Source of the DNA: Vreelandella halophila
GTDB lineage: Bacteria; Pseudomonadota; Gammaproteobacteria; Pseudomonadales; Oleiphilaceae
Assembly: GCF_009856365.1 (NCBI RefSeq)
Contig: NZ_WMEX01000002.1
Span: 434,001-498,000, forward strand
Reading direction: 5' to 3'
DNA length: 64,000 bases
Under the pieces are notes generated by a model. That model saw only the letters and a list, made by a program, of their open reading frames with translations, was not told where the DNA came from and did not search any database. The stretch's first letter is position 1; the number at the start of each line of letters is the position of its first letter. The translations under genes and the position numbers were made by a program. Shown here one piece after another: positions 13,976 through 64,000 of the stretch.

Positions 13976-15844
13976 TCAGGCCGGCTGCCCGTCGCCGTCG
14001 ACAGTGACCCGGTTGCGTCCGGAATGCTTGGCGGCATATAGGGCCTGGTCCGCGTCCTCAAACAGGCGCTGCGTGATCTCAACCGTCTCGGGAATCCGGC
14101 CGCTGATGCCGATGCTTACCGTCAGGTGGATGGTCTCCCGGGAGACCTGGAAAGGCGTTTCGGCCACCCGCCGGCGGATCCGCTCGGCCACGCAGCGGGC
14201 CCCTTCAGCCGTGGTATCCGGGAGCACCACCACGAACTCCTCGCCACCATAGCGGGCGACAATGTCCTCGGGGCGTGTCACCAGGTTGGCAATGCATTCC
14301 GCCACCATCCGCAGGCAGTCGTCACCCACCAGGTGCCCGTAACGGTCGTTGAAGGCCTTGAAGTGGTCAATGTCCAGGACCATTACGGACAGCGGCTGGC
14401 GGTAACGGAATGCTTCCACGCAATAGTTCGGAAAAACCTCTTCGAAGTAGCCGCGGTTGCGCAGGCCGGTGAGGGCGTCCGTTGTGCTGAATTCCAGCAG
14501 CTTGGCATTGGCGGCTTCCAGGGCCTCGGTACGCTCGTGCACCCGATGCTCCAGGCGTGTATTGGCCTCTTCCTGGACCCGCAGTGTCTCCGCCTGCGCC
14601 ATTCGGGCATTGCGCTCTTCCCTCAGGGCCTGTTGCTGAGCCTCCAGCGCCGCTTTTTTCTCCTTGTTGAGGCGATCCGCAATGGCGAATGAGAGCACAA
14701 TGACTCCGAGGCCCGAGCCCACCTGGACCGCGTTCTGGGTGAACACGGTGTTGGGCAGCAGGGCGAATTTGCTCAGGGCCAGGATGATGCCGCCGGCAAG
14801 CATCGCGAACCAGGCAACCGTATAGTAACGCGCTGCCTGTACTCCTTTGAGGAGACGGACAATCCCCACAAGAAGCATCAGGCAGCAGGCCACGAAGGCC
14901 ACGCCGATGCTCGGCAGTACAATGGTGCTGAAGGGCACGAAGAGGGCCACCAGGATGATGAGCAGGGCGGCAGCGATCAGGTTTGAGGTAGCCCGCAGCA
15001 GGAAGGGATGGTTGTCGCTGTTGATGGACAGGAAGCGGATGGTGAACAGGGCACCGAAGACCACCACGCTCATCAGGAAGATCATCATCAGCTGGTTGTT
15101 CCACCAGGTCGCGCCGGGCCAGAGGAACTGGTAGGCGAGGCCGCCAAGCGTGGCGAGGAACAGTGGCATGGCGGAGATGTAACCGATGTAGTAGAGGAAG
15201 GCCCGTTCGCGCACCGCGATGTAGACGAAGATGTGATAGAAGATCATGGCCACGGCAATGCCGAAATAGATGCCCTGGAACAGCAGGTCGGACTGTTCAT
15301 AGACCAGAAACGCTTCCGATTCCCAGAGGGTCAGCGGCACCTGCATGGAGCTGCCCGTCTCCACGCGCATGAGCACCGTCAGTGTTTCCCCGGGTGCGAG
15401 TTGCAGCGGAATCACGAAATTACGGTGTTCCAGCGGGCGCTGCCCGAAAGGCAGCTGATTGCCCATGGTCTGTGTCTGGACCGTCTCGCCACCACTGAGT
15501 ACATGCAGGTCAATGTGGTGCAGTGCGGGGTAACCGATTTCCAGATAGGGACTGAGCGGGGCGTCCGTGGGGTTGTGGATCCGGGTCCGGAACCAGTAGG
15601 GCTCATCCACATAGCCGTGGCTGATGGACGGCGGCTCTTCCGGGGTCCAGGCTTCACGCGGCAGGCTGCGGACGTCACCGAGGCTGGCGTCGCCACTGGT
15701 GTCGACCCACGACTGGGTATGGCCCTCAAGTGGGAGGTTCCGTTCGTTCCCGGACCACTGGGCAGTCTCTGCGGACGCGGGGCTTGCCAGCAGCAGGAGT
15801 CCGTAGAGTAGCAACCGAATCAGTATGCGGCTCATTATCAGCAT
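13976..15844 (-). CDS. 7TM-DISM sensor diguanylate cyclase (GGDEF)
   Basis: The 622-residue membrane enzyme should make c-di-GMP from two GTP. It has a signal peptide (LLLYGLLLLASPASA), a periplasmic 7TMR-DISM extracellular domain to about residue 165, seven membrane helices (about 180-385), a coiled coil rich in Glu, Ala and Gln (about 390-450) and a C-terminal GGDEF domain. The active site reads GGEEF at 533-537, and the product-inhibition I-site RPED sits exactly five residues before it, so both catalysis and feedback control look intact. ATG 15844 is used; ATG 15835 (three residues shorter) is equally possible. It ends 5 bp from the convergent regulator gene. Confidence 0.92.
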   Translation of the reverse strand: MLIMSRILIRLLLYGLLLLASPASAETAQWSGNERNLPLEGHTQSWVDTSGDASLGDVRSLPREAWTPEEPPSISHGYVDEPYWFRTRIHNPTDAPLSPYLEIGYPALHHIDLHVLSGGETVQTQTMGNQLPFGQRPLEHRNFVIPLQLAPGETLTVLMRVETGSSMQVPLTLWESEAFLVYEQSDLLFQGIYFGIAVAMIFYHIFVYIAVRERAFLYYIGYISAMPLFLATLGGLAYQFLWPGATWWNNQLMMIFLMSVVVFGALFTIRFLSINSDNHPFLLRATSNLIAAALLIILVALFVPFSTIVLPSIGVAFVACCLMLLVGIVRLLKGVQAARYYTVAWFAMLAGGIILALSKFALLPNTVFTQNAVQVGSGLGVIVLSFAIADRLNKEKKAALEAQQQALREERNARMAQAETLRVQEEANTRLEHRVHERTEALEAANAKLLEFSTTDALTGLRNRGYFEEVFPNYCVEAFRYRQPLSVMVLDIDHFKAFNDRYGHLVGDDCLRMVAECIANLVTRPEDIVARYGGEEFVVVLPDTTAEGARCVAERIRRRVAETPFQVSRETIHLTVSIGISGRIPETVEITQRLFEDADQALYAAKHSGRNRVTVDGDGQPA

Positions 15845-48732: not shown

Positions 48733-49718
48733 TGGCAACACACGGTGGCCGACTGAACCAGGCGGTACAGCAGTGGGGGATTCCCCGCGGCCAGTGGGTG
48801 GACCTTTCGACTGGCATCAACCCCTGGCCGTGGCCGGTTCCAGCGGTGCCGGCTGAAGTCTGGCAGCGGCTCCCGGAGGAGGACGACGGTCTACCGGCTC
48901 AGGCACGGCACTGGGCCGGTGCGCCGCCAGATGCCGGATGTCTTCCCGTGGCCGGAACCCAGGCCGCGATACAGGCCCTTCCCCGATTAAGGGCCCCGGG
49001 GCGCATCGGCGTGCCGGACCCGGGCTATGTTGAACACGCCGAAGGGTGGCGGGCTGCCGGGCATGAGGTTATCCCGTTCACGACCCTGCCCAGCGATGAG
49101 GAGCTGGCCGCGCTGGATGCGCTGGTCTGGATCAATCCCAACAACCCCACAGGGGAGCCGGTGATGGCCCGTGATCTGGTGGCCTGCCACGAGCAACTGG
49201 CGGCCCATGGGGGCTGGCTGGTGGTGGATGAAGCCTTTATCGACGCGGAGCCGACTCAGACATTGGTGCCTGAGACGGGACGTGAAGGACTGGTGGTTTA
49301 CCGTTCCATGGGCAAGTTCTTCGGGCTGGCAGGCCTGCGGGCCGGACTGGTGTTCGGACCTGGCGGGCTCTGTGGCTCGCTTGGTGAGCTGCTTGGCCCC
49401 TGGGCTGTCAGCCACCCTGCGCGCTATCTGACGCAGCAGGCCCTGTCGGATACGGCCTGGCAGAAAGCCGCTGCAAGCCAGCTTCATCACGGGCACGACC
49501 GCCTCGTCGCACTGCTCAGGAGCGCCGGCCTGGCTCCCCGGGGCAGTGCGCCGTACTTTGCGTACTGCCCCCATGATGAGCCTGGGCGGGTCGCAGAGGC
49601 GCTGGCCGCGCAGGCGGTGCTGGTGCGTGTGTTCGAGGCGCCGCCCGCCCTGCGCTTTGGCCTGCCTGGGGCAGAGCCCGAATGGGAACAGCTGGCGCGT
49701 GCGCTCCAGACCCTCTAG
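48732..49718 (+). CDS. cobD: L-threonine-O-3-phosphate decarboxylase (CobD/CobC type)
   Basis: The 328-residue PLP aminotransferase-fold enzyme makes aminopropanol phosphate, the linker used by CbiB. It shows HGGRLNQAVQQWG, DLSTGINPWPWP, WINPNNPTGEP and the PLP Lys195 in RSMGKFFGLAGLRAGL. The start ATG 48732 overlaps the cbiB stop; an in-frame GTG at 48726 is the alternative. Its last 4 bp overlap the convergent sulfatase gene. Confidence 0.93.
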   Translation: MATHGGRLNQAVQQWGIPRGQWVDLSTGINPWPWPVPAVPAEVWQRLPEEDDGLPAQARHWAGAPPDAGCLPVAGTQAAIQALPRLRAPGRIGVPDPGYVEHAEGWRAAGHEVIPFTTLPSDEELAALDALVWINPNNPTGEPVMARDLVACHEQLAAHGGWLVVDEAFIDAEPTQTLVPETGREGLVVYRSMGKFFGLAGLRAGLVFGPGGLCGSLGELLGPWAVSHPARYLTQQALSDTAWQKAAASQLHHGHDRLVALLRSAGLAPRGSAPYFAYCPHDEPGRVAEALAAQAVLVRVFEAPPALRFGLPGAEPEWEQLARALQTL

Positions 49719-51589
49719 CGGTAGAACCGGGACATTTCCTGGAGCACTTCCTTGATAGTGCGGGGATCCGGCCGGAACTCCGGCGCCGGATTGAGCTCAT
49801 CGTCCACGGTTTCCACCCGGCCTGAGGCATACTGAACGATCCGGTGATCGTCCAGTAACACCGCGTAGTCCATGTAACTGTGGGCAATGCTCCAGTCCCG
49901 TTCGCGCTTCTGGAACAGGCCGTTGCCGGTGGCATAGGTCTCCGGGGCCGTGGCGCCGCAGCCAAGGGCCCTGCCCATGAGCGTAGGGGCAACATCGAAG
50001 TTCTCAGTGCGGTACTCGATGGTTCGGCTGTCACGTCCCGGCCAGTGCACGATCATGGGGGTGTGCAGCTGGTACTGCCCGAAGTTGCTGCCGTGGCCCC
50101 AGTAATTCTTTCCGTATTCGTTGAACTCCTGGCCATGGTCCCCGGTGATCATGACGATGGTGGAATCCAGAAGGTCCCGGTCACGGAGGTCGGAAAGCAC
50201 GCGCCCGACCTGATTGTCCACGAAATGCAGGGTGGACTTGTAGTTGTTGCGCATCAGTTCCGGGTTGAAGTCCGGGCCCAGGGCCAGCTTGTTCACCGGA
50301 TCCCAGTATGGCTGGAATTTTACCGGATAATCGTCCGGCACCCGGTGGTTGTGTGGTGTGTCGTAGAACAGGAACCCGAAGAATGGCTCACCGGTGCTGG
50401 CCTCACTGTGCTGCGCAGTGAAGTCCAACCAGTCATTGGTGATGCGGGTGTCACGGTCCCAGGGTTTGTCCCCGGGTGTTTCCAGGCGCAGATCGTCCAC
50501 AGAAGCGAAGACGTTCTTGGTGAACGCGGGGCTGATCAGCGGCGCGGAGCTCAGGATCTTCATCCGGTAGTCCAGTTCCTGCATGCGCGTAATCATCACC
50601 GGCGGCTGTTTGGCGGTGGTGAACGCCTCCCAGTAGCCGCTGGGCAGTGAATAGAACAGGGTGAAAATGCCCGGCTTGGTGGCATTACCATTGCTGTAGT
50701 GATCCGTGAACTGCAGGCTCCTGCCCGCAAATTCATGGATGTTCGGCATCCACCGGGGATCGACCATGTCGCCGCGGGCGCCGTCTATCGCGATCACCAG
50801 CACGTTGGGGCGTTCGGCCGGCCTTTCACAGCTCAGGGGCTCGGTGGGGTAATCCAACTGGCCACCGCCGCCGCCAGTGGTGAGCGCGCTGGCAGCGCTC
50901 TGTTCCCGGATGGCCTCGGGGTCCACCAGTCCGTTCTTTTCCATGAAACGCTTGGCGGTTGCGCCGTAATACAGCGGCATGGCCCGGGTGATTGAGGTAA
51001 TGCGGCTGTCGTGGTTGGCATCCGCCCAGGCGTGCCAGCCGTGCACAACCAGCTGGCCGGCAAAGACGGTGGCAATACCGAGTGCCAGCCAGCGCCCCCG
51101 TGGCCGCCGCCGGAACAGGAAGATGCCCATGACCAGCTCCAGAAGCAGCAGCCCGAGCGTCGCGCCGCCGGCTATGGCCCACATCTGCCAGGGAAAGGCA
51201 AAGATCTGGGTGCCACCCTTAAGGGCCATATCCAGAACAAACCCGGAGAGATGGAAACGGAACTGGGCATAGGTGACGGTATCAATCAGCAGGAGCCCGA
51301 GAGCGCCCGTTGCATACACCGTCCCCAAAGCGATGAGCAGCCGGCGGCTGGGGATGAGTCCGATCACCAGCAGCGGCAGGCCGGCGACCAGTGCCAGCAG
51401 CGGGAACTGCGCCAGGTACAGGAAGGTGACATAGATGCCGGTGGTACCGTCTGGAATGGTGATCCAGGGCAGATAACGCAGGCCAACCAGAAGAGCCAGT
51501 ACGCCATTGGCTAACAGAAACCAGCCGGTCCAGCTCAGGCGTTGCCCGAGTTCCCTGAGTTGAGTTTTCAGCAAATCCCTTCCATCCAA
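49715..51589 (-). CDS. PbgA/YejM-like inner-membrane sulfatase-fold protein
   Basis: The 624-residue protein has about five membrane helices (to about residue 195) and a periplasmic sulfatase-fold domain (about 265-590). Motifs such as VIAIDGARGDMVDP, HYSNGNATKPGIFTLFYSLPS (given in part), ITGDHGQEFNEYG and NYWGHGSNFGQYQLHTPM match YejM/PbgA (LapC). That protein senses periplasmic lipopolysaccharide and controls LpxC degradation through LapB. It is usually non-enzymatic although it keeps the fold. No lap genes are beside it. Confidence 0.88.
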   Translation of the reverse strand: MDGRDLLKTQLRELGQRLSWTGWFLLANGVLALLVGLRYLPWITIPDGTTGIYVTFLYLAQFPLLALVAGLPLLVIGLIPSRRLLIALGTVYATGALGLLLIDTVTYAQFRFHLSGFVLDMALKGGTQIFAFPWQMWAIAGGATLGLLLLELVMGIFLFRRRPRGRWLALGIATVFAGQLVVHGWHAWADANHDSRITSITRAMPLYYGATAKRFMEKNGLVDPEAIREQSAASALTTGGGGGQLDYPTEPLSCERPAERPNVLVIAIDGARGDMVDPRWMPNIHEFAGRSLQFTDHYSNGNATKPGIFTLFYSLPSGYWEAFTTAKQPPVMITRMQELDYRMKILSSAPLISPAFTKNVFASVDDLRLETPGDKPWDRDTRITNDWLDFTAQHSEASTGEPFFGFLFYDTPHNHRVPDDYPVKFQPYWDPVNKLALGPDFNPELMRNNYKSTLHFVDNQVGRVLSDLRDRDLLDSTIVMITGDHGQEFNEYGKNYWGHGSNFGQYQLHTPMIVHWPGRDSRTIEYRTENFDVAPTLMGRALGCGATAPETYATGNGLFQKRERDWSIAHSYMDYAVLLDDHRIVQYASGRVETVDDELNPAPEFRPDPRTIKEVLQEMSRFYR

Positions 51590-51703: not shown

Positions 51704-51732
51704 TTGACCCGGTCATGGGCCCTTGGTAGGGT
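51704..51732 (+). promoter_or_regulatory. Sigma70-type promoter of the riboswitch-btuB operon
   Basis: TTGACC (51704-51709) and TAGGGT (51727-51732) are spaced by 17 bp, so transcription would start near 51738, directly before the conserved riboswitch core. The 114 bp between the sulfatase start and this promoter (51590-51703) hold no gene and should carry the divergent sulfatase promoter. Confidence 0.7.
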
Positions 51733-51737
51733 TCGAT

Positions 51738-51933
51738 CCACTTTCAGGTGTCCCTGCTGTGGCAGGGATGAAACGGGAAGCCGGTGAGCTGCATGACGCA
51801 GCGAGGCCGGCGCTGCCCCCGCAACGGTGATTGAGTCAAAGGCGGCCATCACGCCACTGTGCCGGAGAAGCATGGGAAGGCGGTCGCTGGGGATGCCATG
51901 GGCATCCGCTCATCAGCCCGTAGACCGGCCTGA
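51738..51933 (+). ncRNA. Cobalamin (adenosylcobalamin) riboswitch
   Basis: The leader has the conserved cobalamin-aptamer blocks in order: TTTCAGGTG, GATGAAACGGGAAGCCGGTG, GCTGCCCCCGCAACGGTGA, the B12-box region CACGCCACTGTGCCGG, GGGAAGGCGG and the 3' closing CATCAGCCCGTAGACCGGCC. It lies about 170 bp before the btuB start, with no gene between. A CGTTGC/GCAACG hairpin at 51947-51963 may belong to the expression platform. It should repress the whole downstream operon when cobalamin is plentiful. Confidence 0.95.
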
Positions 51934-52101
51934 AGGGATCGCCATGCGTTGCGGAGGGCAACGACAGGCCGGCCGGATCTTCCCCCGCGGCTCACGCTGC
52001 GCACTATTCAACCTCCCGCCGCCTGTCACCCTGAGTCTGCCCCCGCGACGCGTCCAGCAATGCTGTGCGGGGAAGCGCAGCAGGCAACAGGGAGTTACAC
52101 C

Positions 52102-53976
52102 ATGACCAACCGACAGGCCATTCTGCCTCTGGCAGCTGCAATCAGTCTTAGCGCATCCGTTTCTACGGCTCAGACTGCTGATGGGATCACTCAGGTTTCC
52201 TCGCTGGAACTTAATCCGCTTATCGTTACTTCTTCCCGGATGACAGAGACCGCCGACGAGGCGCTTTCGGCCGTTTCCGTCATCGATCGCGAAGAGATTG
52301 AGCAGCGCCAGCCCCAGTCAACGTTTGATCTTCTGCAGACCGAGCCAGGTGTCGACGTTGCCCGTAACGGTGGGCGTGGCGCCAACAACAGCGTTTTTCT
52401 GCGCGGCACCGAATCGGACCACACACTCGTCCTGATGGATGGTATGCGGGTGTCCTCGGCAACCACCGGCCAGTTCGCCTGGCGGGCCCTGCCGCCGGCC
52501 AGCGTCGAGCGCATCGAGATTGTTCGTGGTCCGCGCGCGAGCCTCTACGGCTCGGACGCCATCGGTGGCGTGGTTCAGGTGTTCTCCCGGGAGCCGGACG
52601 AGCCCTACCTGAGGCTGCGCGGCGGCAGTAACCGGACCCGCCAGGTTGAAGCGGGTTTCGGCGATGACGGCCCCGTGCGCTATGGCCTGAATGTTGGCTA
52701 TGAGGCGACGGACGGATTCCCTTCCCAGGAGGAAGGCGCCGGTGTTCAGGAGGATCATGGGTACCGGGGGCGGACCGTATCCGGCTTCGCCTCCGCACCC
52801 GTTGCCGCAGAAACCCGCCTGACCGGCCGTGTCTGGGCCAACAGCAGTGCCGTGGAGTTCTCCACCACCAACAGCCAGGGCGAGTTCGAGACTGGAGAGC
52901 AGGATACCCGCAACCTGAGTTCGCGGGTCTCGCTGGAACAGTCGCTGATGGCGGCCTGGGATCATGAGATCGGTGTGGGCTATTCGGAAGATCAGCTGGA
53001 GAACTTCGGGGCCCGCAGTGACGACGTCCATAACCTCATCCGCACCCGCCGTACCACCGTTGACTGGCGTCATGACGTGAGCGTCACCGAGAGCCAGACG
53101 GTGCAGTTCGGCGCGGATTTCCGCGAGGCGAATGTTCTCTCCGAGGACCGGATAACCGGGACCGAGGATTTTGACAAGACACTCGGCAACACTGGTGTCT
53201 ACGCGCTCTGGCGCGGCATGTTCGACGGCCTGGACACAGAAGCTTCCGTGCGCCACGACGACAACCGGGATTTCGGCAGCGCCACCACATGGCAACTGGC
53301 CGGAGGCATTCCTGTTGAGCAGGGTGTGCGCCTCAGAGCCTCCCTGGGCACGGCCTTCAAGGCGCCCAGTGCCAACGAACTCTACAGCCCAGGGTTCTTT
53401 GGCGGACTCTACGCTGGTAACCCTGATCTTGAACCCGAGGAGTCCCGCAGCGGTGAGCTCGGAGTGCGTTTCCGGGACCAGGGCGGCAGTGAACGGGCGG
53501 AGGTGAACCTGTTCGTGACCCGCATCGATGACCTGATTGCGTACCAGGGGCAGGATTTCCAGGCGGTGAACGTGGATGAGGCCGAGATTCAGGGGCTGGA
53601 GTTCATCTACGGTCGCTCCCTCCAGGACTGGCACCTGGATTTCAGTGCCACTTTCCAGAAGGCCGAGAATCGCACCACCGGGGAACGTCTGGCACGGCGG
53701 CCGGATGAGAAAGCAAGCCTGGTGCTTGGGCATGACCTCGACAACCGGACACGGCTCTCCGTGGAAGCGAAAGTCGCCGGTGAACGCCCGGATGGGAGTA
53801 CCACCCTGGCCGGCTACGGGGTCGTGAATCTGGCCGCAACCCGTCAGCTCCGCGAGGGCCTGAAGCTCGAGGCGCGCGTTGAGAACCTGACCAACAGTGA
53901 CTACCAGCTCGCGAACACCTACAACACGCGCGATCTCTCCGCGTTTGTCGGTATCCGCTGGGAGCCGTGGCAATGA
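52102..53976 (+). CDS. btuB: TonB-dependent outer-membrane receptor, BtuB-like
   Basis: The 624-residue receptor has a signal peptide (residues 1 to about 23), a plug domain (about 40-155; TFDLLQTEPGVDVARNGG, VFLRGTESDHTLVLMDGMRV, IVRGPRASLYGSDAIGG) and a beta-barrel. The riboswitch and length indicate a corrinoid receptor. GGGAG lies 8 bp before ATG. The frame stays open upstream to 51949, but that sequence belongs to the RNA leader. The stop overlaps the start of the CobN-like gene. The cargo could be cobalamin or a cobalt-free or incomplete corrinoid. Confidence 0.93.
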   Translation: MTNRQAILPLAAAISLSASVSTAQTADGITQVSSLELNPLIVTSSRMTETADEALSAVSVIDREEIEQRQPQSTFDLLQTEPGVDVARNGGRGANNSVFLRGTESDHTLVLMDGMRVSSATTGQFAWRALPPASVERIEIVRGPRASLYGSDAIGGVVQVFSREPDEPYLRLRGGSNRTRQVEAGFGDDGPVRYGLNVGYEATDGFPSQEEGAGVQEDHGYRGRTVSGFASAPVAAETRLTGRVWANSSAVEFSTTNSQGEFETGEQDTRNLSSRVSLEQSLMAAWDHEIGVGYSEDQLENFGARSDDVHNLIRTRRTTVDWRHDVSVTESQTVQFGADFREANVLSEDRITGTEDFDKTLGNTGVYALWRGMFDGLDTEASVRHDDNRDFGSATTWQLAGGIPVEQGVRLRASLGTAFKAPSANELYSPGFFGGLYAGNPDLEPEESRSGELGVRFRDQGGSERAEVNLFVTRIDDLIAYQGQDFQAVNVDEAEIQGLEFIYGRSLQDWHLDFSATFQKAENRTTGERLARRPDEKASLVLGHDLDNRTRLSVEAKVAGERPDGSTTLAGYGVVNLAATRQLREGLKLEARVENLTNSDYQLANTYNTRDLSAFVGIRWEPWQ

Positions 53977-56900
53977 AGCGCCTGCTGGTCGCATGCTTCA
54001 TCCTGGTGGCTGCACCGGCGCTTAACGCCGCCACCATCGTCGGCATCGTCTCGGACCGCTCCTCCGCCGAAATGGCGGCGGGCGCCGAGGAGCATTTGGC
54101 CGCGTTCCCGGAACACGAGATCGTGCTGCGCACGCCCGAGCAGCTGAAGGATCTTCCCGACGAACAGGTTACGGACCTCTGGAGCGACGCGGACGCGCTC
54201 ATCCTGGCCGCCGTTTTTGGCGAGGAGTCGGGCCGCATCCGCCGGCTGGTGCGTGACCAGGGGCCGGGGGCGGACGTGCCCATCATGGCCATGAACAGCA
54301 AGCGCGGCATAACCCGCCTTTCCCGGCTCGAGGGCGAGCGCGTGATGGCGGATCTCTCGGACAGGACCATCAACGAGATGGTCGCGAACCCTGAACCCGG
54401 CGAGGACCCCGCCGCGCACCTGGATGAACGCCGCAAGCAGTACCCGGAGCAGGCGGAATGGCTCACCGGCCGCGCCTTCTACCAGGGCCGCAGCCCCGAG
54501 CACATGGATGGCCTCTTCCGCTGGGCGCTGGCCCAGGCCGGGTATGACATCGAGGTGCCGGAACCCAAGCCCCGCGAGCCCATCCGGTACTACCGTAATG
54601 GCGAAGCCAGTGCCGATCCGGATTCCCTCAACCTGGAGGAAGGCCCGGCCGTGGCCCTGCTGGACCTGGATTCGGGCGACCGCCCCGGCGATCGGGACCT
54701 GCTGGACGCCGCCTGCGAGCAGATGGAAAAGCGCGGCATCCAGTGCTTCACCATCCTGGCCCGTTGGGGTGGGGCGAGCGTTGAAGCGGTGAAGACGCTG
54801 GAGGAACGGATCCAGCCGGCTACGCTGTCCGGCATCGTCAGCCTGCAGTATTTCACCGTTGGCGGTGGCGATGGCCGCGAAGCCGTGACCAAAGCGTTCA
54901 ATAACCTGGATGTGCCGGTCATCAAGGGGATCCGCATCTCCAAGCTCACCAAGCCCGAATGGTTGCTCTCCGATGAAGGGCTGCCGTGGGATTCGGTGCA
55001 TTACCAGCTCGCCATGCCCGAACTCCAGGGCATCAGCCAGCCCATGGTGCTGGCGGTGGCCGAGCCGCCGCGCATCGATGAGGAAACGGGCGTGGAACTC
55101 ACGCTGACCACGCCGGTGGCCGAGCGCGTCAACGCCCTCGCGAACCGGATGGATCGCTGGGTCACGCTCCAGACCAAGGAGAACTCGGACAAGCGTGTTG
55201 CGGTGGTCTACTACAATCACCCGCCGGGCCGGCAGAACATCGGCGCGGACAAGCTCAACGTCCCGGAATCCCTGTTCGAGATCCTGCAGCGGCTCAAGGC
55301 TGAGGGCTACAAGACGGGCGAGCTTCCCGAGTCCCCGGAAGCCCTGCTGGATGAGATCCAGGATCGTGGCGTGAACCTCCCGGACCAGCAGTCCGGACTG
55401 GAAGATCTGGCCGGCAAGGTCCCCTCCGTGAGTAAGGAAACCTATCTGGAACGGTTCAAGCAACTGCCGGAAGCAGTCCAGGCGGAGATGCAGCACGGCC
55501 CCGTGGGCTACCTCCACGCCCAGCTGAAGAACGCCGCCAACAACGGCCATACCAAGCTGGGTAACGACCTGCTCAAGAACGGCGTGAAGGACCTGCGCCA
55601 CATGCTGCGCAACTACGAGCACGACGCCACTCAGCGCGCTCTGGACCTGCTCGACCAGTACCAGACCGGCTGGCGCGCCGTTCTCCGCAATGAGCAGAAC
55701 TCGACGGAGAAGGTCACCAGCATCCGCGATGCCCTGATCCGCACCGGCATCCCCGGCCTCTCGGGCTGGGGCGAAGCGCCGGGCCGCTCCATGGTTCACG
55801 AAGGCGAGATGCTGTTCCCCGGCATCCATTTCGGTAACGTCTTCATCGGCCCGCAGCCGCCGCGTGGCTGGGAAGTGAGCGAGGAACTGCTGCACGCCAA
55901 CACCACCTTCCCGCCCACCCACCAGTACGTCGGCTTCTACCAGTGGCTGCGCAAGGACTTCAACGCGGACGCGCTCGTCTACCTGGGCCGCCACTCCACC
56001 CGCGAGTTCCTGCCCCGGCGCCGCGCGGGCCTGGCCGAGGACGACTACCCGGAGCTGCTGGGCAAGGATCTCCCGCTCATCTACCCCTACATCGTTGACG
56101 GGGTGGGCGAGGGCATCCAGGCCAAGCGCCGCGCCATGGGTGTAATGATCAGCCACCTCACGCCGCCGCTGGAAACCACCAAGCTCTACGACAACCTGCT
56201 GGAACTGCGCCAGCTCGTCGAAACCTGGGAGTCCTCCAACGATCCGGATTCCTCCTCGCGCGACCGTGCCGTGAAGGAACTGCGCAAGCGCCTCAGGGAA
56301 CTGGACATGGTCCAGGATATCGAGAAGGAACTCGCCGCCGAGCACCACCACGGTGAAGAAGAGCACAACGAGGAGGAAGGCGAAGAAGAGGGTAAGCACG
56401 AAGAGGGCGAGGTGCACGCCGAGACCGAACATCACCACAAGCATGAAGACGTCGAGGCGCCGGAAGAGGGCGGCGAGCACGCCCACGCCCATAAGCATGA
56501 GGACGGTGACGGGCATGGCCACGAGCACCACCACGACGAGGAAACCGTCCACCTGGAAGACGTGGATGACGAACTCCTGGTGCACGAGGTGGGCCACTAC
56601 CTGACCACCATGCAGGAAAGCTTCATGCCCCTCGGCCTGCACGTCTTCGGGCGTGACTGGGAACAGGAAGGCATCGAAACCATGCTCAACTCCATGGCCG
56701 GTGACGACGAGGAGCCGAAGCCCAAGTGGCGCGAGAAGCTCAAGGCCTCCCCCGGCGAAGAGATGGACCACCTCATGGCCGGCCTCGACGGCCGCTTCGT
56801 CCCGCCGGGCGAGGGCAACGACCCCGTGCGAACCCCGGCGGTACTGCCCACCGGCCGCAACTTCCACGCCCTGTCCAGCGACCTGGTCCCGACCCGCGTC

Positions 56901-58517
56901 GCCTGGTCCCTGGGCGCGGAAATGGCCAAGGACGCCCGCAACAAGGGTGACCCCAAGGCCGAGGGCAGCGAGGCCATCGTCCTCTGGGCCTCCGATACCG
57001 TCCGTGACGAGGGCGTGATGATCGCCTTCGGCCTGGACATGCTCGGCATCAAGCCCAAGTGGAATTCCCGTGGCATCGTGGAAGGCCTCGAGCGCATGCC
57101 GCTGGATGAGCGCAACCGCCGCCGCGACGCACTCTTCACCACCTCCGGCCTGTTCCGGGACCTCTACGAGGACCAGCTGGTGCTGCTCGACCAGGCCTCG
57201 CGCCTGGCCCTGGATGGCGCCTACAAGACCATCATGAACAAGCACCCGCAGCTGGACCGCGCCCTGGAAGCCGCCATGGAACCGCTGCCCGAGGAAATGC
57301 GCGACCCCGGCAGTGAAAGCCTCGCGAAGAATGACGTGGCCGCCCGCTGGGTCGCCGATACCAAGGCCATGATGGCCAACGGCGCCAAGGCCCAAAAAGC
57401 CGGCTCGGATGCGGCCCTGCGCGTCTTCGGCACTGCCCCTGGCTCCTACGGCGCCGGCGTCAACCGCCTCGCGGACCGCTCCGGCGCCTGGGACGACCGC
57501 GGCAAGGTCGCCGACGCCTACACCCGCCGCATGGGCTACGCCTTCGGCGGCGACAAAGAGGGAGGCCGCCCTGCGCACGATGCCTTCAAGGATCGTCTGG
57601 ATGACGTCGGCCGCACCTATCTCGGCCGCGCCAGCCACGTCTACGGCCTGCTCGACAACGACGACGGCTTCGACTTCCAGGGCGGGCTCTCCATGGCCGT
57701 GGAACACGAAACCGGCGAGGCCCCGACCAACCGCGTGCTCATGCATGCGGATCCGGACAACCCCAGGGTCGAATCCCTGCAGCAGGCCCTGCTCAGCGAG
57801 CTGCGTGGCCAGAACCTGAACCCGCAGTGGATCAAACCGCTGATGGAGCAGGGTTACGCCGGCGCACGCACCATGTCCGCGGACTTCCTCGACAACCTCT
57901 GGGGCTGGCAGGTGACGAGCCCGGACGTGGTGAAATCCGCCGTCTGGGACGACATCAACGAGGTCTACTTCGAGGACCGTCACAACCTGGGTCTCGATAA
58001 GTTCCTCGAGAAGGACCACAACGTCCACGTCAAAACCCACATGCAGGCGATCACACTGGTGGCCGCGCATCGCGGCTTCTGGAAGCCCGACGAGGAAACC
58101 CTCAAGAAACTGCGCCAGGAGTTCGCCCAACTCGTCGTCGAGAACGGCCTGCCCGGCAGCGGCCACACCCGCCCGGACCACCCCACCATGCAGTGGGTGG
58201 CCGAGAACCTGAGCGATGCCGAGCTGAAGAAAGACTTCAGGGCCGTCCTCGATGCCGCGCGCATGCAATCGCCGGAGTCCGGCAAGGCCCAGCCGGTGAG
58301 CATGCGCGAAGTCACTATGAAACAGAAACCCAAGCAGCAGGAAGCCGAAGAGAAGGCCCAGCAGCAATCGGAAAAGAAAACGGAACAAACGTCCGAGCAA
58401 CCCGATGCGCAAAAGGCCTCGGCCGAGGGCGGACAGGTCCTGCTTCCGTGGTTCATCGGCGGTGGTGTCCTGCTGCTTCTCGGTGGTGGTGTCGTCGCCG
58501 GTCGACGCCTCTCATAA
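53973..58517 (+). CDS. Exported, membrane-anchored CobN-like chelatase with His-rich insert
   Basis: The 1514-residue protein belongs to the CobN/BchH/HmuS superfamily but is longer than the roughly 1200-1300 residues of cytoplasmic CobN. It has a Sec signal peptide (ACFILVAAPALNA), CobN-type core segments (WASDTVRDEGVMIAFGLDML, then FTTSGLFRD), a Glu/Asp-rich insert with about 20 histidines at residues 790-866, a charged Gln/Lys/Glu linker (about 1440-1485) and a C-terminal membrane helix (about 1490-1510) ending RRLS. The usual HGTxEfLPGK active-site region reads GRHSTREFLPRR around His674. ATG 53973 overlaps the btuB stop. Topology implies a periplasmic enzyme held in the inner membrane. 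Cobalt insertion, cobalt removal or another tetrapyrrole reaction are all possible. Confidence 0.85.
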   Translation: MKRLLVACFILVAAPALNAATIVGIVSDRSSAEMAAGAEEHLAAFPEHEIVLRTPEQLKDLPDEQVTDLWSDADALILAAVFGEESGRIRRLVRDQGPGADVPIMAMNSKRGITRLSRLEGERVMADLSDRTINEMVANPEPGEDPAAHLDERRKQYPEQAEWLTGRAFYQGRSPEHMDGLFRWALAQAGYDIEVPEPKPREPIRYYRNGEASADPDSLNLEEGPAVALLDLDSGDRPGDRDLLDAACEQMEKRGIQCFTILARWGGASVEAVKTLEERIQPATLSGIVSLQYFTVGGGDGREAVTKAFNNLDVPVIKGIRISKLTKPEWLLSDEGLPWDSVHYQLAMPELQGISQPMVLAVAEPPRIDEETGVELTLTTPVAERVNALANRMDRWVTLQTKENSDKRVAVVYYNHPPGRQNIGADKLNVPESLFEILQRLKAEGYKTGELPESPEALLDEIQDRGVNLPDQQSGLEDLAGKVPSVSKETYLERFKQLPEAVQAEMQHGPVGYLHAQLKNAANNGHTKLGNDLLKNGVKDLRHMLRNYEHDATQRALDLLDQYQTGWRAVLRNEQNSTEKVTSIRDALIRTGIPGLSGWGEAPGRSMVHEGEMLFPGIHFGNVFIGPQPPRGWEVSEELLHANTTFPPTHQYVGFYQWLRKDFNADALVYLGRHSTREFLPRRRAGLAEDDYPELLGKDLPLIYPYIVDGVGEGIQAKRRAMGVMISHLTPPLETTKLYDNLLELRQLVETWESSNDPDSSSRDRAVKELRKRLRELDMVQDIEKELAAEHHHGEEEHNEEEGEEEGKHEEGEVHAETEHHHKHEDVEAPEEGGEHAHAHKHEDGDGHGHEHHHDEETVHLEDVDDELLVHEVGHYLTTMQESFMPLGLHVFGRDWEQEGIETMLNSMAGDDEEPKPKWREKLKASPGEEMDHLMAGLDGRFVPPGEGNDPVRTPAVLPTGRNFHALSSDLVPTRVAWSLGAEMAKDARNKGDPKAEGSEAIVLWASDTVRDEGVMIAFGLDMLGIKPKWNSRGIVEGLERMPLDERNRRRDALFTTSGLFRDLYEDQLVLLDQASRLALDGAYKTIMNKHPQLDRALEAAMEPLPEEMRDPGSESLAKNDVAARWVADTKAMMANGAKAQKAGSDAALRVFGTAPGSYGAGVNRLADRSGAWDDRGKVADAYTRRMGYAFGGDKEGGRPAHDAFKDRLDDVGRTYLGRASHVYGLLDNDDGFDFQGGLSMAVEHETGEAPTNRVLMHADPDNPRVESLQQALLSELRGQNLNPQWIKPLMEQGYAGARTMSADFLDNLWGWQVTSPDVVKSAVWDDINEVYFEDRHNLGLDKFLEKDHNVHVKTHMQAITLVAAHRGFWKPDEETLKKLRQEFAQLVVENGLPGSGHTRPDHPTMQWVAENLSDAELKKDFRAVLDAARMQSPESGKAQPVSMREVTMKQKPKQQEAEEKAQQQSEKKTEQTSEQPDAQKASAEGGQVLLPWFIGGGVLLLLGGGVVAGRRLS

Positions 58518-58536
58518 GGCCTGAAGGAGGCAAGCA

Positions 58537-58983
58537 ATGTTTACATCCGCAACCCTCGACATCATGGACTCCATGGTGAGCTTCCTCCTGGAGCCGGTGA
58601 TCATCGCGCTGCTGGCGCTGATCGCCCTGGCGCTCTGGGAAACTGGCCTGGCCATCGGTGAACGCACCGGCGGCCTGCGCCGGATGATCGAACGCGGTGA
58701 TACGGAATCCCTCGCCGCCCGCGCCCAGCGCCGCATTGACCGCGCCGACCTGATCGCTCGTGTCGGCCCCATGATGGGCCTCATGGGCACCCTGATCCCG
58801 CTCGGCCCGGGCCTGGCCGCGCTCGGGCGCGGTGAGCTCGACGTGCTGGCGGAGGCGGTGACCGTGGCCTTCAACACCACCGTCCTCGGCCTGCTTGCCG
58901 GCATCATCGGCTTCCTGCTCGGGCGCATGCGCCGCCGCTGGTACGATGGCGCCATGGCCCAGCTGGAGGAGGCCGCGGCATGA
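58537..58983 (+). CDS. MotA/TolQ/ExbB-like proton-channel protein
   Basis: The 148-residue protein has three predicted helices (about 15-38, 75-100 and 108-130) and the family motif ARVGPMMGLMGTLIPLGPGL, equivalent to the second helix of ExbB/TolQ. GAAGGAGG precedes ATG. It is shorter than ExbB, with a reduced N-terminal and cytoplasmic region. It is coupled to the DUF2149 gene by a 4-bp overlap and lies 19 bp after the CobN-like gene, so it may energise that protein or the receptor. Proton conduction is inferred from the family. Confidence 0.88.
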   Translation: MFTSATLDIMDSMVSFLLEPVIIALLALIALALWETGLAIGERTGGLRRMIERGDTESLAARAQRRIDRADLIARVGPMMGLMGTLIPLGPGLAALGRGELDVLAEAVTVAFNTTVLGLLAGIIGFLLGRMRRRWYDGAMAQLEEAAA

Positions 58984-59282
58984 GTGTGCCCGAGTACCGC
59001 CGCAGCCGTTTCGACATCACCGACGAGGACCCCATGGGCCCGCTGGCGAACCTGGCTGATATCATGTTGGTATTCGCCGTTGGCCTGATGGTGGCGCTGG
59101 CCGCCTCCGAAAGGGCCAACGATCCGCAGCAGAGCGGCGTGGACGTGAAGGCGGGCCGCGAGATGCCGGAACTGCCCGAGGGCGCGGGCGAATCCGGTGA
59201 AGGCTTCCAGCCCATGGGCCAGGTCTACCGGGACCCGGAAACCGGGCGCATGATCATGATCGACAAGGGGAACAGCCAGTGA
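58980..59282 (+). CDS. DUF2149 protein, ExbD-like
   Basis: The 100-residue protein has a short cytoplasmic N-terminus, a single membrane helix about residues 22-43 (PLANLADIMLVFAVGLMVAL) and a polar C-terminal tail. An Asp at the start of the helix is placed as in ExbD/TolR (PLIDVMLVLL-like), where it carries protons with ExbB. DUF2149 proteins occur beside CobN-like and MotA/ExbB-like genes in other genomes, including haem-acquisition loci with HmuS. Role here is inferred from position and the Asp. Confidence 0.84.
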   Translation: MSVPEYRRSRFDITDEDPMGPLANLADIMLVFAVGLMVALAASERANDPQQSGVDVKAGREMPELPEGAGESGEGFQPMGQVYRDPETGRMIMIDKGNSQ

Positions 59283-60169
59283 TCCGGATGCTGCACCGAC
59301 TCACCGCCGTCGCCCTTCTCTTTCTGGTCGCCACCACGACGGCCCACGCGGAAGTCTGTGCCACGGATGATCGTGGGAAGGAGGTCTGCCTGGACAGCCC
59401 CGCTGAACGCATCATCAGCCTCTCGCCCGGCGCCACTGAGCTGCTCTTCGCCGCCGGCGCCGGGGACGACGTGGTGGGTGTGGTCAACTACAGCGACTAC
59501 CCCGAGGCCGCCAGGGAACTGCCCATCATCGGCAGCCTCAAGCGGCTGGATGTTGAGCGAATCCTGAGCCTGTCGCCGGATCTGGTGATTGTCTGGGTGA
59601 CCGGTAACCCCAAGGAACAGACCGAGCGGCTGGAAGAGCTGGACCTCACCCTGTACTACCTCGAGCCCAGGGATTTCGAGGGCATCGCCAGCGCCATCGA
59701 GCGCCTCTCGACCCTGGCGGATACCAAAGAGGTGGGCTACAGGGAAGCCGATCGGTTCCGCGCCGGGATCGAGTCGCTGCGTGATGAATACGGTGATGCC
59801 GATCCGGTGCCAGTGTTCTACCAGGTCTGGGATCAGCCGCTGATGACGGTTAATGGCGAACACTTCATCCACGAAGTGATTGAACTGTGCGGTGGCGAAA
59901 ACATCTACGCGGAGCTCGATCGGCTGGTGCCACGCATCGACCGGGAATCCGTTCTGGCCGGCAACCCGGAGGCGATCGTCGCCGGCGGTATGGGCGAGCA
60001 GAACCGGGACTGGTTGCAGGAATGGAAACAGTACGGCTCGCTGACCGCCACCGAGCGGGGCAACCTTTTCTTCGTGCCGCCGTCCACCCTGCAGCGGCCT
60101 ACACCACGCCTGCTGGAAGGCGGCGCCACCCTGTGCAAGAAACTGGAGACCGCCCGTGAACGCCGCTGA
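59279..60169 (+). CDS. btuF: Cobalamin ABC transporter substrate-binding protein BtuF
   Basis: The 296-residue periplasmic protein has a cleavable signal peptide (ending TTTAHA) without a lipobox and two lobes joined by a long helix (YREADRFRAGIESLRDEYG). Segments RIISLSPGATELLFAAGAG and VVGVVNYSDYPEAARELP match BtuF. GTG 59279 overlaps the DUF2149 stop; ATG 59288 is an alternative. The gene overlaps btuC by 14 bp. Confidence 0.92.
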   Translation: MIRMLHRLTAVALLFLVATTTAHAEVCATDDRGKEVCLDSPAERIISLSPGATELLFAAGAGDDVVGVVNYSDYPEAARELPIIGSLKRLDVERILSLSPDLVIVWVTGNPKEQTERLEELDLTLYYLEPRDFEGIASAIERLSTLADTKEVGYREADRFRAGIESLRDEYGDADPVPVFYQVWDQPLMTVNGEHFIHEVIELCGGENIYAELDRLVPRIDRESVLAGNPEAIVAGGMGEQNRDWLQEWKQYGSLTATERGNLFFVPPSTLQRPTPRLLEGGATLCKKLETARERR

Positions 60170-61178
60170 GGCCGTCGCACACCGGGCCAGCGCCTCCATG
60201 GCCATTTCCGCCTGGCGTCCCTTTCTGCCGCTGGTGTGGTTGGCATTGCTGGGGCTGCTGGCCCTAATGATGGCCGTCGCCATCGGCAGCGTGACCATCG
60301 CGCCGGGCGAGTTCTGGGCGGTGATCCTGGGCGAGGGCAGTGAACTGCACCGCACCCTCATCTTTGAGCTGCGCGCGCCGCGCGCACTGGCCGGGTTCGC
60401 CACCGGGGGCCTGCTGGCGGTGGCCGGGGCGCTCATGCAGATCCTGCTGCGCAACCCGCTGGCGGACCCCTACGTGCTCGGTGTCTCCGGCGGTGCCTCG
60501 GTGGGTGCGCTCGCCGCCATGCTTGCCGGAACCGGCACCGCCGTGCTCTCCGGTTCCGCCTTCGCGGGCGCGCTGCTGTCCACCTTCCTGGTCTTCGGCC
60601 TCGCCCACGGCACCGGCAGCTGGACCCCCGCGCGGCTGCTGCTTACCGGCATCGTGGTCGCCTCCGGCTGGGGCGCGGTGATCACACTGATGCTGGCCAT
60701 CGGCCCGACGGACAAACTCCCGGGCATGCTCTACTGGCTCATGGGCGACCTCACCTACGCCCAGACCCCCTGGCCGGCGCTGATCACGCTGGCGCTGGTC
60801 TGCTTGCTGGTCATTCCCCTCGGGCGCAGCCTCAACGTCCTCGCACGTGGCCCGCTGCAGGCGGCGGCGCTGGGCGTGGCCGTGCGCCCGCTGGAATGGA
60901 CCATCTACGTGCTCGCCAGCCTGCTCACCGCACTGGCCGTGACCACTGCTGGGAGCATCGGCTTTGTGGGGCTGGTGGTGCCGCACATGCTCCGGCTGGT
61001 GCTGGGCAACGACCAGCGCCTCATCCTGCCGGCCTGCGCGCTGGCCGGGGGCGCACTGCTCACGCTGGCGGACACGCTCGCGCGCATCGTCATCGCCCCC
61101 GAACAGCTCCCCGTGGGTGTGATCACCGCCCTGCTGGGCGTGCCGACCTTCCTCGTGCTGCTGTACCGGAGTCGCTGA
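60156..61178 (+). CDS. btuC: Cobalamin ABC transporter permease BtuC
   Basis: The 340-residue protein is full length for FecCD permeases with about ten helices. It has ELRAPRALAGFATGG, LLRNPLADPYVLGVSGGAS, LLTGIVVASGWGAVI, YWLMGDL and GSIGFVGLVVPHMLRL. It carries the N-terminal helix missing in the paralogue at 42849. It is coupled to btuF and btuD. Confidence 0.94.
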   Translation: MNAAEAVAHRASASMAISAWRPFLPLVWLALLGLLALMMAVAIGSVTIAPGEFWAVILGEGSELHRTLIFELRAPRALAGFATGGLLAVAGALMQILLRNPLADPYVLGVSGGASVGALAAMLAGTGTAVLSGSAFAGALLSTFLVFGLAHGTGSWTPARLLLTGIVVASGWGAVITLMLAIGPTDKLPGMLYWLMGDLTYAQTPWPALITLALVCLLVIPLGRSLNVLARGPLQAAALGVAVRPLEWTIYVLASLLTALAVTTAGSIGFVGLVVPHMLRLVLGNDQRLILPACALAGGALLTLADTLARIVIAPEQLPVGVITALLGVPTFLVLLYRSR

Positions 61179-61942
61179 TGGCCGTGCTTGAAACCCGGGA
61201 ACTCATCATCGACATCCCCGAGCGCGCGGACGGCCGCCCGCTCAGCCTGCGCATGGAACCGGGCCAGACCTGGGGCATCCTCGGCCCCAATGGCGCCGGC
61301 AAGAGCACCCTGCTGCACACCCTCGGCGGCCTCAACCGCCCGAGGAGCGGGGAAGTGCGGATCGACGACACCCCATTGCGCCAGATGCGGCGCAGCACCA
61401 TCGCCCGGCAGCTCGGCCTCGTCTTCCAGGAACGCCAGGACGGCTTCCCCGCCACCGTCCTCGAAACCGCCCTGATCGGAAGGCACCCCTTTTTGTCCCC
61501 CTGGCAGCTCGAAGGCGGCGACGACCTCGAAATGGCCGAAAAGGCCCTGGAACGCCTGGAACTCAGCGACCTGGCGGATCGTTCCGTCAGTACCCTATCC
61601 GGTGGCGAACGCCAGCGCGTCGCCCTGGCCACGGCCCTGACCCAGAGCCCCAGCATCTGGCTCGCCGACGAACCCACCAACCACCTGGACCTCCGCCACC
61701 AGGTGGCCGTGATGGAACTGCTCTCGGAACAGGCCAGGGCAGGGCACACTGTCGTCATGTGCCTCCACGACCTCAACCTCGCCGCCCGCTGGTGCGACCA
61801 CCTCCTGCTCCTGTACCCGGACGGCGAAGCCTGCTGGGGCGAGGCCGAAAGCATGCTCAAACCCAAAGCCCTCGAACAGCTCTACGGCCAGCCCCTCACG
61901 TGGGCGGAGGTGGATGGGGCTCCCGTATTCGTGCCGTCATGA
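61178..61942 (+). CDS. btuD: Cobalamin ABC transporter ATPase BtuD
   Basis: The 254-residue ATPase has Walker A GPNGAGKSTLL, signature LSGGERQRVALA, Walker B IWLADEPTNHLD and MCLHDLNLAARW. The ATG overlaps the btuC stop (TGATG). It completes the BtuFCD importer in the riboswitch operon. A REP pair 27 bp after its stop marks the end of this tightly packed block. Confidence 0.94.
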   Translation: MAVLETRELIIDIPERADGRPLSLRMEPGQTWGILGPNGAGKSTLLHTLGGLNRPRSGEVRIDDTPLRQMRRSTIARQLGLVFQERQDGFPATVLETALIGRHPFLSPWQLEGGDDLEMAEKALERLELSDLADRSVSTLSGGERQRVALATALTQSPSIWLADEPTNHLDLRHQVAVMELLSEQARAGHTVVMCLHDLNLAARWCDHLLLLYPDGEACWGEAESMLKPKALEQLYGQPLTWAEVDGAPVFVPS

Positions 61943-63397: not shown

Positions 63398-64000
63398 ATG
63401 CGAGAGAACGCAAAAGACCCGGAACGCCATGCCCAGCGCATGGCCCGCAAGAAAAAGGTCATGGAAGAACGCATGGCCAACGCCCAGAAAGACCATGGCG
63501 TCCTCCTCGTGAACACCGGCAACGGCAAGGGCAAAAGCTCTTCCGGCTTCGGCATGGTTGCCCGCAGCCTCGGCCACGGTTTGCAGGTCGGCATCGTCCA
63601 GTTCATCAAGGGCAAGATGCAGACCGGCGAGGAACGCTTCTTCCGGGACCAGGCCAACGTCGACTACCACGTCATGGGCGACGGCTACACCTGGGACACC
63701 CAGGACCGTGAAAAGGACGTTGAAGCCGCCGAGAACGCCTGGAAGGAAGCCGCGCGCATGCTCTCCGACGAGCGCTACAGCCTGGTGCTGCTCGACGAAC
63801 TCAACATCGCCCTGCGCTACGAATACCTCGACCTCGACCGCGTCCTGGATGACCTCCAGAACCGCCCCGAGATGCAGCACGTCGTGGTCACCGGCCGGAA
63901 CGCGCCGAAAGAGCTGATCGAGCTGGCGGACACCGTGACCGACATGACCATCGTCAAGCACGCGTTCAAGGATCTCGGCGTCCGTGCCCAGAAAGGCGTC
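63398..64000 (+). CDS. cobO: Corrinoid adenosyltransferase (3' end just beyond window)
   Basis: The frame from ATG 63398 is open to the window end (201 codons), about the full length of CobO/BtuR, so only the last few residues are missing. It has an N-terminal helix rich in Arg and Lys, the P-loop NTGNGKGKSSSGFGM (relatives usually have GKGKTT), VGIVQFIKGKMQTGE, LVLLDELNIALRY and VVVTGRNAPKELIELAD. It transfers the adenosyl group from ATP to cob(I)alamin or cobyrinate diamide, directly after the CobB step. It begins 2 bp after the cobB stop. Confidence 0.94.
   Translation, partial: MRENAKDPERHAQRMARKKKVMEERMANAQKDHGVLLVNTGNGKGKSSSGFGMVARSLGHGLQVGIVQFIKGKMQTGEERFFRDQANVDYHVMGDGYTWDTQDREKDVEAAENAWKEAARMLSDERYSLVLLDELNIALRYEYLDLDRVLDDLQNRPEMQHVVVTGRNAPKELIELADTVTDMTIVKHAFKDLGVRAQKGV

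Follow-up and report, generated by a model that had tools for sequence, protein, structure and literature searches.

Here, we describe a riboswitch-led operon of Vreelandella halophila that joins an exported CobN-like protein to a putative proton motor and a corrinoid importer, in a 64,000-nucleotide stretch of contig NZ_WMEX01000002.1 (positions 434,001 to 498,000; hereafter the window). We infer a periplasmic location for this protein, predicted from its sequence, as well as cobalt insertion, its direction, its substrate and its use of the proton-motive force: our preferred, though tentative, reading is that the protein inserts cobalt into metal-free corrins in the periplasm, driven by the motor, and that the product is then imported. 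A CobN-type (class I) chelatase would thereby have been relocated to the periplasm as a corrin metallase, acting on a corrin that lacks metal and has reached the hydrogenobyrinic acid stage. A C-terminal anchor would link the protein to an ExbB/DUF2149 proton motor, which would substitute for the AAA+ ATPase (ChlI/ChlD or CobS/CobT) because the periplasm has no ATP. The cobalt-corrin product would be imported, through BtuFCD where this is present, and CobB, BtuR and CobQ would carry out amidation and adenosylation of the imported corrin in the cytoplasm. Rings would be supplied as scavenged metal-free corrinoids via BtuB and possibly, in late-pathway producers, as the cell's own ring, while a His-rich loop in the window's lineage may collect Co(II).

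The initial annotation had described a cobalamin riboswitch followed by seven mostly overlapping genes, with a signal peptide and a C-terminal anchor on the CobN-like protein. A covariance model and profile matches place the riboswitch and all seven genes as it had, and hydropathy and inspection by eye, on which both calls rest, bear out the signal peptide and the anchor. The features are as follows.

51729..51947, + strand: cobalamin riboswitch aptamer (RF00174), 110.3 bits (gathering score 31.5)
52102..53976, + strand: BtuB-like TonB-dependent outer-membrane receptor; TIGR01779 394.3 bits, under the equivalog cut-off of 599.7; PF07715 and PF00593
53973..58517, + strand: exported CobN-like class I chelatase subunit ('group 3'); PF02514 786.8 bits
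53973..54029, + strand: probable signal peptide (MKRLLVACFILVAAPALNA) of the CobN-like protein; hydropathy 2.30, relatives starting alike
55992..55994, + strand: His674, by alignment the equivalent of HmuS His538, the superfamily metal-site His
56340..56561, + strand: His-rich insert, 20 His in 74 residues (amino acids 792-865, numbered from the GTG at 53967)
57663..57665, + strand: Asp1231, at the alignment position of HmuS His1209
58440..58514, + strand: C-terminal membrane anchor (...LLPWFIGGGVLLLLGGGVVAGRRLS), a hydrophobic segment and then the basic tail GRRLS
58537..58983, + strand: ExbB/TolQ/MotA-like channel subunit, 148 amino acids; PF01618 40.6 bits
58980..59282, + strand: DUF2149 protein, ExbD-like single-span subunit; PF09919 41.2 bits
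59279..60169, + strand: BtuF-like periplasmic binding protein; NF002894 173.6 bits, under its cut-off of 234
60156..61178, + strand: BtuC-like permease; PF01032 276.6 bits; NF003001 224.8 bits, cut-off 334
61184..61942, + strand: BtuD-like ATPase; PF00005 120.6 bits
62082..63395, + strand: CobB/CbiA, a,c-diamide synthase; NF002204 396.8 bits, above cut-off
63398..64000, running beyond the window, + strand: BtuR/CobO adenosyltransferase; TIGR00708 223.6 bits, above cut-off
After btuR, just beyond the window and within the next 2.4 kb of the contig (L004, about 14137-15585): cobQ

From btuB to btuD, genes overlap at 4 of the 6 junctions, the remaining two gaps measuring 19 and 5 bases. A gap of 139 bases separates btuD from cobB, with btuR and then cobQ downstream, and the riboswitch-led unit very probably runs on into these three, to make ten genes in all.

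Canonical late cobaltochelatase CobN is a cytoplasmic, ATP-driven enzyme with AAA+ partners, CobS/CobT or ChlI/ChlD. The window's protein carries the PF02514 domain of this family and misses both CobN equivalog cut-offs (TIGR02257, 483.6 against 822.05; NF004645, 598.9 against 1619). Moreover, its N-terminus is of the Sec type, hydrophobic and ending in ...ALNA, in place of a cytoplasmic start without a signal peptide. Because of this N-terminus and of the C-terminal span with its basic tail, the body of the protein, some 1,400 residues, is expected to lie in the periplasm.

To place the protein among its relatives, 293 genomes of the window's order were surveyed, and the 102 with a PF02514 match were sorted by score and reading frame into three types. 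The canonical CobN/ChlH type scores more than 1,080 bits in a single piece (61 genomes, including perhaps five with ChlH/BchH); group 3, the window's type, shows a PF02514 match in three pieces (25 genomes, 1 shared with the canonical set); and group 2 consists of genes mostly adjoining strong DUF2149 genes (17 genomes, 5 shared). Fragments and weak matches (G011, G033, G091, G145 and G164) were left out of the sorting. The order sample partly overlaps the named loci that we also compared (for example, L239/G102 and L247/G210), which makes the two sets of counts not fully independent; among the loci, L262 was left out and L164, L173, L258, L259 and L261 contributed little. In a tree of 72 rows, quickly built, with long branches and with HmuS, CobN and ChlH entered as pieces, the 41 group-3 rows form one branch (SH-like approximate likelihood ratio test, SH-aLRT, 100), canonical CobN is separate (100), HmuS is also separate, and group 2 is not a single clade. 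The nearest named records by CobN sequence come from Vreelandella utahensis, Halospina and Halovibrio. Judged by this tree, the window's CobN falls in a third clade of the CobN/ChlH/HmuS superfamily, and this clade is well supported. The initial claim that it differs from both HmuS and canonical CobN is thus upheld by a clade of its own and, as follows, by its active-site residues.

HmuS binds at its site through His538 and His1209, with Glu1212 (PMC12583661; here and below, papers are cited from excerpts of their text). The first of these, His674 in the window, is invariant in 19/19 sequences of one alignment and in 41/41 group-3 rows. At the position of His1209, Asp is found in 41/41 group-3 rows and in 30/31 canonical CobN rows (all 31 canonical rows were counted for residues, 11 of them being in the tree), and group 2 has His in 11/17 and Asp in 5/17. 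The Glu1212 position is Asp in 41/41 group-3 rows and Gln in 31/31 canonical CobN rows, and in ChlH the two positions are occupied by His and Asp. Thus, all 41 group-3 rows read His, Asp, Asp in place of the bis-His arrangement of HmuS. As far as aligned residues can tell, the group-3 metal site is closer to the cobaltochelatase kind than to HmuS, with a second-shell residue of its own.

Regulation ties the clade to corrinoids. RF00174 was found at all 29 group-3 loci scanned (the window; 7/7; 8/8; 6/6; 7/7), drawn from 105 such loci, and at none of the 7 group-2 loci scanned (22 loci were fetched), and the system's dedication to corrinoids, claimed at the outset, is backed by this consistency. 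The riboswitch-bearing group-3 loci come from Billgrantia, Marinobacter relatives, Halospina, Halovibrio, Thioalkalivibrio, Duganella, Cognatazoarcus, Methylobacillus, two sphingomonads and one Myxococcota metagenome-assembled genome (MAG). At L071 the match before CobN is only partial, and at L197 an open frame intervenes between riboswitch and CobN. L071 (G259) is also peculiar in that CobN and the ExbB-DUF2149 pair are divergent, with a cobalamin riboswitch before each.

It is tempting to compare the protein with HmuS in function as well, as a de-chelatase that demetallates imported corrinoids or porphyrins, for example for cobalt reuse or for proofreading of wrong metals. Its top-scoring solved relative is HmuS (9d26, 345.6 bits; CobN 9uk9, 333.0 bits), the gene trio is arranged as in hmuS-hmuU-hmuV, and HmuS itself is an NADH-dependent heme de-chelatase that does not need ATP (PMC12583661). 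However, it would be strange for a gene under B12 repression to destroy B12, cobalt is hard to remove from corrins without destruction of the ring (PMC6771967), and Asp stands here in place of both Glu1212 and the second axial His of HmuS; we regard this function as improbable. A proteobacterial HmuS acquiring heme would share the gene trio and the superfamily, but it is hardly credible given riboswitch control, BtuFCD and cob neighbours, another clade and another active site. Membership of HmuS itself was ruled out by active site, tree and regulation: HmuS, present as pieces only, groups with the group-2 proteins of L044, L059 and L060, and group 3 is separate (100). These three proteobacterial CobN-like proteins on the Bacteroides HmuS branch, of which that of L060 retains the second axial His, are possible heme de-chelatases outside Bacteroidota.

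The two genes after cobN supply the candidate motor. In 24 homologues, Thr85 and Thr115 of the ExbB-like protein are invariant, as are Asn24 and Asp27 of the DUF2149 protein, which lie at the beginning of its one predicted helix; the DUF2149 protein has about 100 amino acids, and its structure model is of low confidence (mean predicted local distance difference test score, pLDDT, 64.9). By its PF01618 match, its invariant Thr85 and Thr115 and the Asp27 of its partner, read as the intramembrane Asp, the pair is predicted to belong to the ExbB-ExbD-type motors. We take the conserved Thr of the ExbB-like subunit and Asp27 of DUF2149 to be the proton-path residues. Meanwhile, no ChlI/ChlD partner was found above cut-off in the window's genome (best 35.7 against 779.45 bits; none at E 1e-30), whose best AAA match is MoxR-like (PF07726, 205.4 bits). 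At the same threshold of E 1e-30, this partner was found in 0/24 group-3 genomes without canonical CobN, as against 59/60 genomes with canonical CobN/ChlH and without group 3; it is present in G173, which has both CobN types, and in 0/12 group-2-only genomes. The early suggestion that the protein has a motor but no ATP-type partner agrees with these 24 genomes and with the ExbB-type motor adjoining the gene.

Anchor and motor are present or absent together in nearly all loci. The 3' end of CobN is covered in 78 of the 80 named loci, of which 54 carry both anchor and motor, 20 lack both and 4 seem mixed; after close reading of the misfits, the two features agree in 76/78. Of the mixed loci, L196 and L249 have a split CobN frame whose second piece ends in a hydrophobic span, L249 also breaking off inside ExbB; L217 lies just below the threshold used, and L190 is anchored but motorless, as described further on. 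One of the 20, L231 (Marinobacter salarius R9SW1, CP007152), has a broken CobN whose second piece is also anchorless; its CobN, BtuF, BtuC and CobQ frames are each split, by real decay or by sequencing error. Since all 20 motorless loci are Marinobacter, the joint loss of anchor and motor is probably a single event and not twenty. In addition, no DUF2149 gene was found anywhere in G093 and G210, relatives taken as Marinobacter. BtuB is kept in 20/20 motorless loci, 19 of them over 200 bits and L228 as a contig-edge fragment of 84 bits. Because Marinobacter lost motor and anchor together yet kept BtuB, it is probably the chelatase that the motor serves. Most simply, the motor would act on CobN via the anchor, with CobN taking the place of TonB in a Ton system.

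The same loci bear on the proposal that ExbB/DUF2149 is a private Ton motor of the BtuB receptor and has nothing to do with CobN. This would follow the published view of HmuU/HmuV (PMC10100974; PMC12583661), but every motorless Marinobacter locus retains BtuB, and beyond the motor only the CobN anchor is gone. Moreover, no tonB was seen among the operon genes, and DUF2149 is a protein of about 100 residues with one helix predicted in a low-confidence model. A private receptor motor seems decidedly improbable.

Marinobacter also informs the substrate. CobB, BtuR and CobQ are the enzymes from hydrogenobyrinic acid onward, and CobB and CobQ have no evident use in cobinamide or cobalamin salvage. 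In 18 of the 20 Marinobacter loci, the exported CobN stands with BtuFCD, CobB, BtuR and CobQ; L229 stops after BtuD, and L245 shows neither BtuC nor BtuD. BluB comes next in L160, and no CbiC was found in G093 and G210, which are of the window's family. This gene set points to a ring-level, metal-free intermediate as the substrate: ring-level because of CobB and CobQ, and metal-free because of CobN. Cobalt-free corrinoids are produced by some purple sulfur bacteria under cobalt lack (PMC6771967).

Alternatively, the exported CobN could be a periplasmic carrier of corrinoids or cobalt without chelatase chemistry, handing corrinoids from BtuB to BtuFCD, with the motor if present. CobN adjoins BtuB and BtuFCD in many loci and is retained without a motor in Marinobacter, as a carrier might be. 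Against this, the His of the metal site does not vary, the Asp resembles that of CobN, and 17 of the 47 motor loci with 9 kb upstream covered show no same-strand BtuB match over 200 bits, a count that divergent receptors would escape. A carrier would also leave unexplained a sole CobN beside CobG genes in Thioalkalivibrio, and we consider it unlikely.

Whether the proposed periplasmic insertion serves salvage only is a question raised by the window's own genome (G000; 3.34 Mb, 19 contigs, 96.86% complete). It has one PF02514 gene, one DUF2149 gene and three cobalamin riboswitches above cut-off, besides a weak extra candidate on contig C13 (23.9 bits). A hidden canonical CobN or ChlI/ChlD was ruled out, with none above cut-off. 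A second locus, on contig C15 with its own riboswitch, encodes CbiD, an ABC ATPase, an ABC-2 permease, CobH, CobI and CobJ, and CobK, CobL, CobM and CobG lie near it. All eight cob proteins (CbiD, CobH, I, J, K, L, M and CobG) pass curated cut-offs, and by these matches the genes make up the route to hydrogenobyrinic acid in which cobalt is inserted late. The sole CobN found in the genome to complete this pathway is the exported one. Divergent from the CbiD operon (L041 about 6347-9876, - strand; G000 C15:61347-64876) are a riboswitch-led TonB-dependent receptor, with a weak TonB-B12 match, and a PepSY_TM gene. In L062, L077, L192, L216 and L226, too, PepSY homologues are found close to the group-3 CobN gene; it is conceivable that they are reductases for Co(III)-corrinoids. 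Next to the main operon, directly upstream on the other strand, the window encodes a YejM/LapC-like DUF3413-sulfatase membrane protein (49715-51589, - strand).

Similarly, the exported CobN is the only PF02514 gene in 12/12 Thioalkalivibrio genomes tested (genome completeness not stated); of 12 genomes outside Thioalkalivibrio tested alike, one, Teredinibacter, has a second. In Thioalkalivibrio versutus AL 2, the riboswitch is followed, in this order, by BtuB, PduO-type transferase, exported CobN, ExbB, DUF2149, BtuR, CobB, SUMT, CbiD, ABC ATPase, ABC-2 permease, CobG, CobH, CobI, CobJ, CobL/CobK and CobM. CbiD, the ABC pair and CobG lie downstream in 7/12 Thioalkalivibrio loci (L184, L187, L191, L211, L222, L223 and L248), and the sequence of L237 ends after CbiD. 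Between the window's genome and T. versutus, identity is 64% for the ABC-2 permease (45% to E. coli YadH), 60% for the ABC ATPase (53% to E. coli YadG), 63% for CobH, 59% for CbiD and 35% for CobG. A chance insertion of the ABC-2 pair was ruled out: the same pair stands among the Thioalkalivibrio cob genes, and the window genome's pair is closer to it than to YadGH. The pair was absent from two canonical late clusters, L163 and L176, in 20 kb searched. YadGH-family genes amid late-pathway cob genes (L041:11544-13087 and L191:19354-21068, both + strand) may be a clue to the substrate class of YadGH, which is annotated only as putative in E. coli.

Because the CobG pathway is encoded in the window's genome and in part of Thioalkalivibrio with this protein as the sole CobN found, the exported protein may serve de novo synthesis too. 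The initial annotation had assigned it to salvage of an imported corrinoid: the link to corrinoids stands, but salvage alone may be too narrow in view of these genomes. Since the exporter travels with the late pathway where the sole CobN lies outside the membrane, the arrangement suggests that the ring is exported for metallation. We could speculate, and we think it somewhat unlikely, that in some bacteria the late step of de novo B12 synthesis takes place outside the cytoplasm, with metal-free hydrogenobyrinic acid from the CobG pathway exported by the YadGH-type ABC-2 transporter of the cob operon, cobaltated in the periplasm by the exported CobN at the expense of the proton-motive force and re-imported. 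If so, periplasmic cobaltation would spare the cell the import of toxic cobalt, and scavenging of the metal-free corrins of others would be a by-product and all that Marinobacter retains. Three group-3 genomes (G023, G259 and G291), with CbiC in the cluster and without a CobG match, may use another chelatase. The His-rich insert, which the initial annotation does not list and which is present in 19/80 related loci (12 or more His in 60 amino acids), was ruled out as a marker of de novo producers, as G123 and G252 encode CobG without the loop.

Several points weigh against motor-driven periplasmic cobalt insertion and its de novo extension. The search for AAA+ partners in the window's genome covered ChlI/ChlD; CobS, CobT and CbiK were not searched for, in an assembly that is 96.86% complete. 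A CbiX-family protein away from the cob loci (L155:976-1956, - strand, on C15; 327 amino acids; PF01903 36.9 bits against a cut-off of 22, over 47/106 positions; no NCBIfam match) is, by this match, possibly another chelatase, of class II. ChlH too has Asp at one of the compared positions, and residues alone leave the substrate unfixed. The 20 Marinobacter loci have an exported CobN without motor or anchor, and proton-motive force is accordingly not always required; conversely L190, on an Aquisalimonas MAG contig, is anchored with no motor gene in 1.2 kb downstream. The group-3 CobN of L190 carries the His-rich loop, and the locus is a real misfit unless its motor sits elsewhere. With CbiC missing from 18/25 group-3 genomes, most owners salvage, and we are aware of nothing to show that corrinoids without metal commonly occur free. 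As for the de novo extension, L183, L219, L220 and L232 lack CbiD, the ABC pair and CobG in the 4 to 7 kb past the last cob gene; the tie of CobN to the CobG pathway is not general even within Thioalkalivibrio. None of the 12 Thioalkalivibrio loci shows a match to BtuF, BtuC or BtuD. G123 and G252, with CobG and only a group-3 CobN, have no ABC-2 pair in the cob cluster, which argues against an obligatory exporter, and we know of no citable substrate for the YadGH-type family. Finally, canonical CobN acts on the a,c-diamide (PMC7689651), which would place CobB ahead of CobN.

If motor-driven insertion is true, an ExbB-type proton motor can drive a class I chelatase in place of an AAA+ ATPase, and B12 cobalt insertion is not restricted to the cytoplasm. 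We would also predict that metal-free corrins are traded among bacteria. Moreover, our analysis gives a testable role to DUF2149 and to exported CobN-like proteins annotated 'cobaltochelatase'. Because anchor and motor were lost jointly in the CobN clade of Marinobacter, HmuU/HmuV, published as powering a heme receptor, may by analogy drive HmuS instead.

Among known systems, canonical CobN shares with the window's protein the superfamily, the Asp at the second axial position and the late-insertion pathway genes, and differs in that here the protein is exported and anchored, with no ChlI/ChlD partner above cut-off in the genome. In the excerpts available, HmuS-HmuU-HmuV of Bacteroidota (PMC12583661, PMC13227078) shares a layout in which a TonB-dependent receptor precedes an anchored CobN-superfamily protein, predicted to lie beyond the cytoplasm, and ExbB-like and DUF2149-like genes come next; it has no ATP need. 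It differs as a heme system, with a second axial His and Glu in place of Asp and Asp, in a separate clade, and without BtuFCD, CobB, BtuR and CobQ. Complete hmu operons are described there as a heme system and the riboswitch-led ones as exceptions; such cobalamin-riboswitch-led hmu-like operons of Bacteroides, such as Bacteroides fragilis, are 'perhaps' for cobalamin (PMC10100974, 2023). The Zur-regulated operon PA1922-PA1925 of Pseudomonas aeruginosa (PMC4542158, PMC8531726), compared by description only, likewise joins a TonB receptor, a CobN-like protein, an ExbD-annotated protein and a hypothetical gene, and differs in its control by zinc starvation. Among the matches listed in our literature search, in excerpt, there was no account of the proteobacterial module or of periplasmic cobalt insertion. 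According to PMC6460266, BtuS was put forward by Rodionov et al. (2003) as a third type related to CobN and serving salvage, and the window's CobN fits that description, a likeness by description with no BtuS sequence in the tree. Both BtuS and the riboswitch-led hmu-like operons are described, in these excerpts, for Bacteroidota, whereas the window's clade is proteobacterial. Measured against these sources, the kind of system is already known, and what is new here is the proteobacterial corrinoid clade, its Asp active site, its tie to the late pathway and an exporter in some lineages, and the evidence on the target of the motor.

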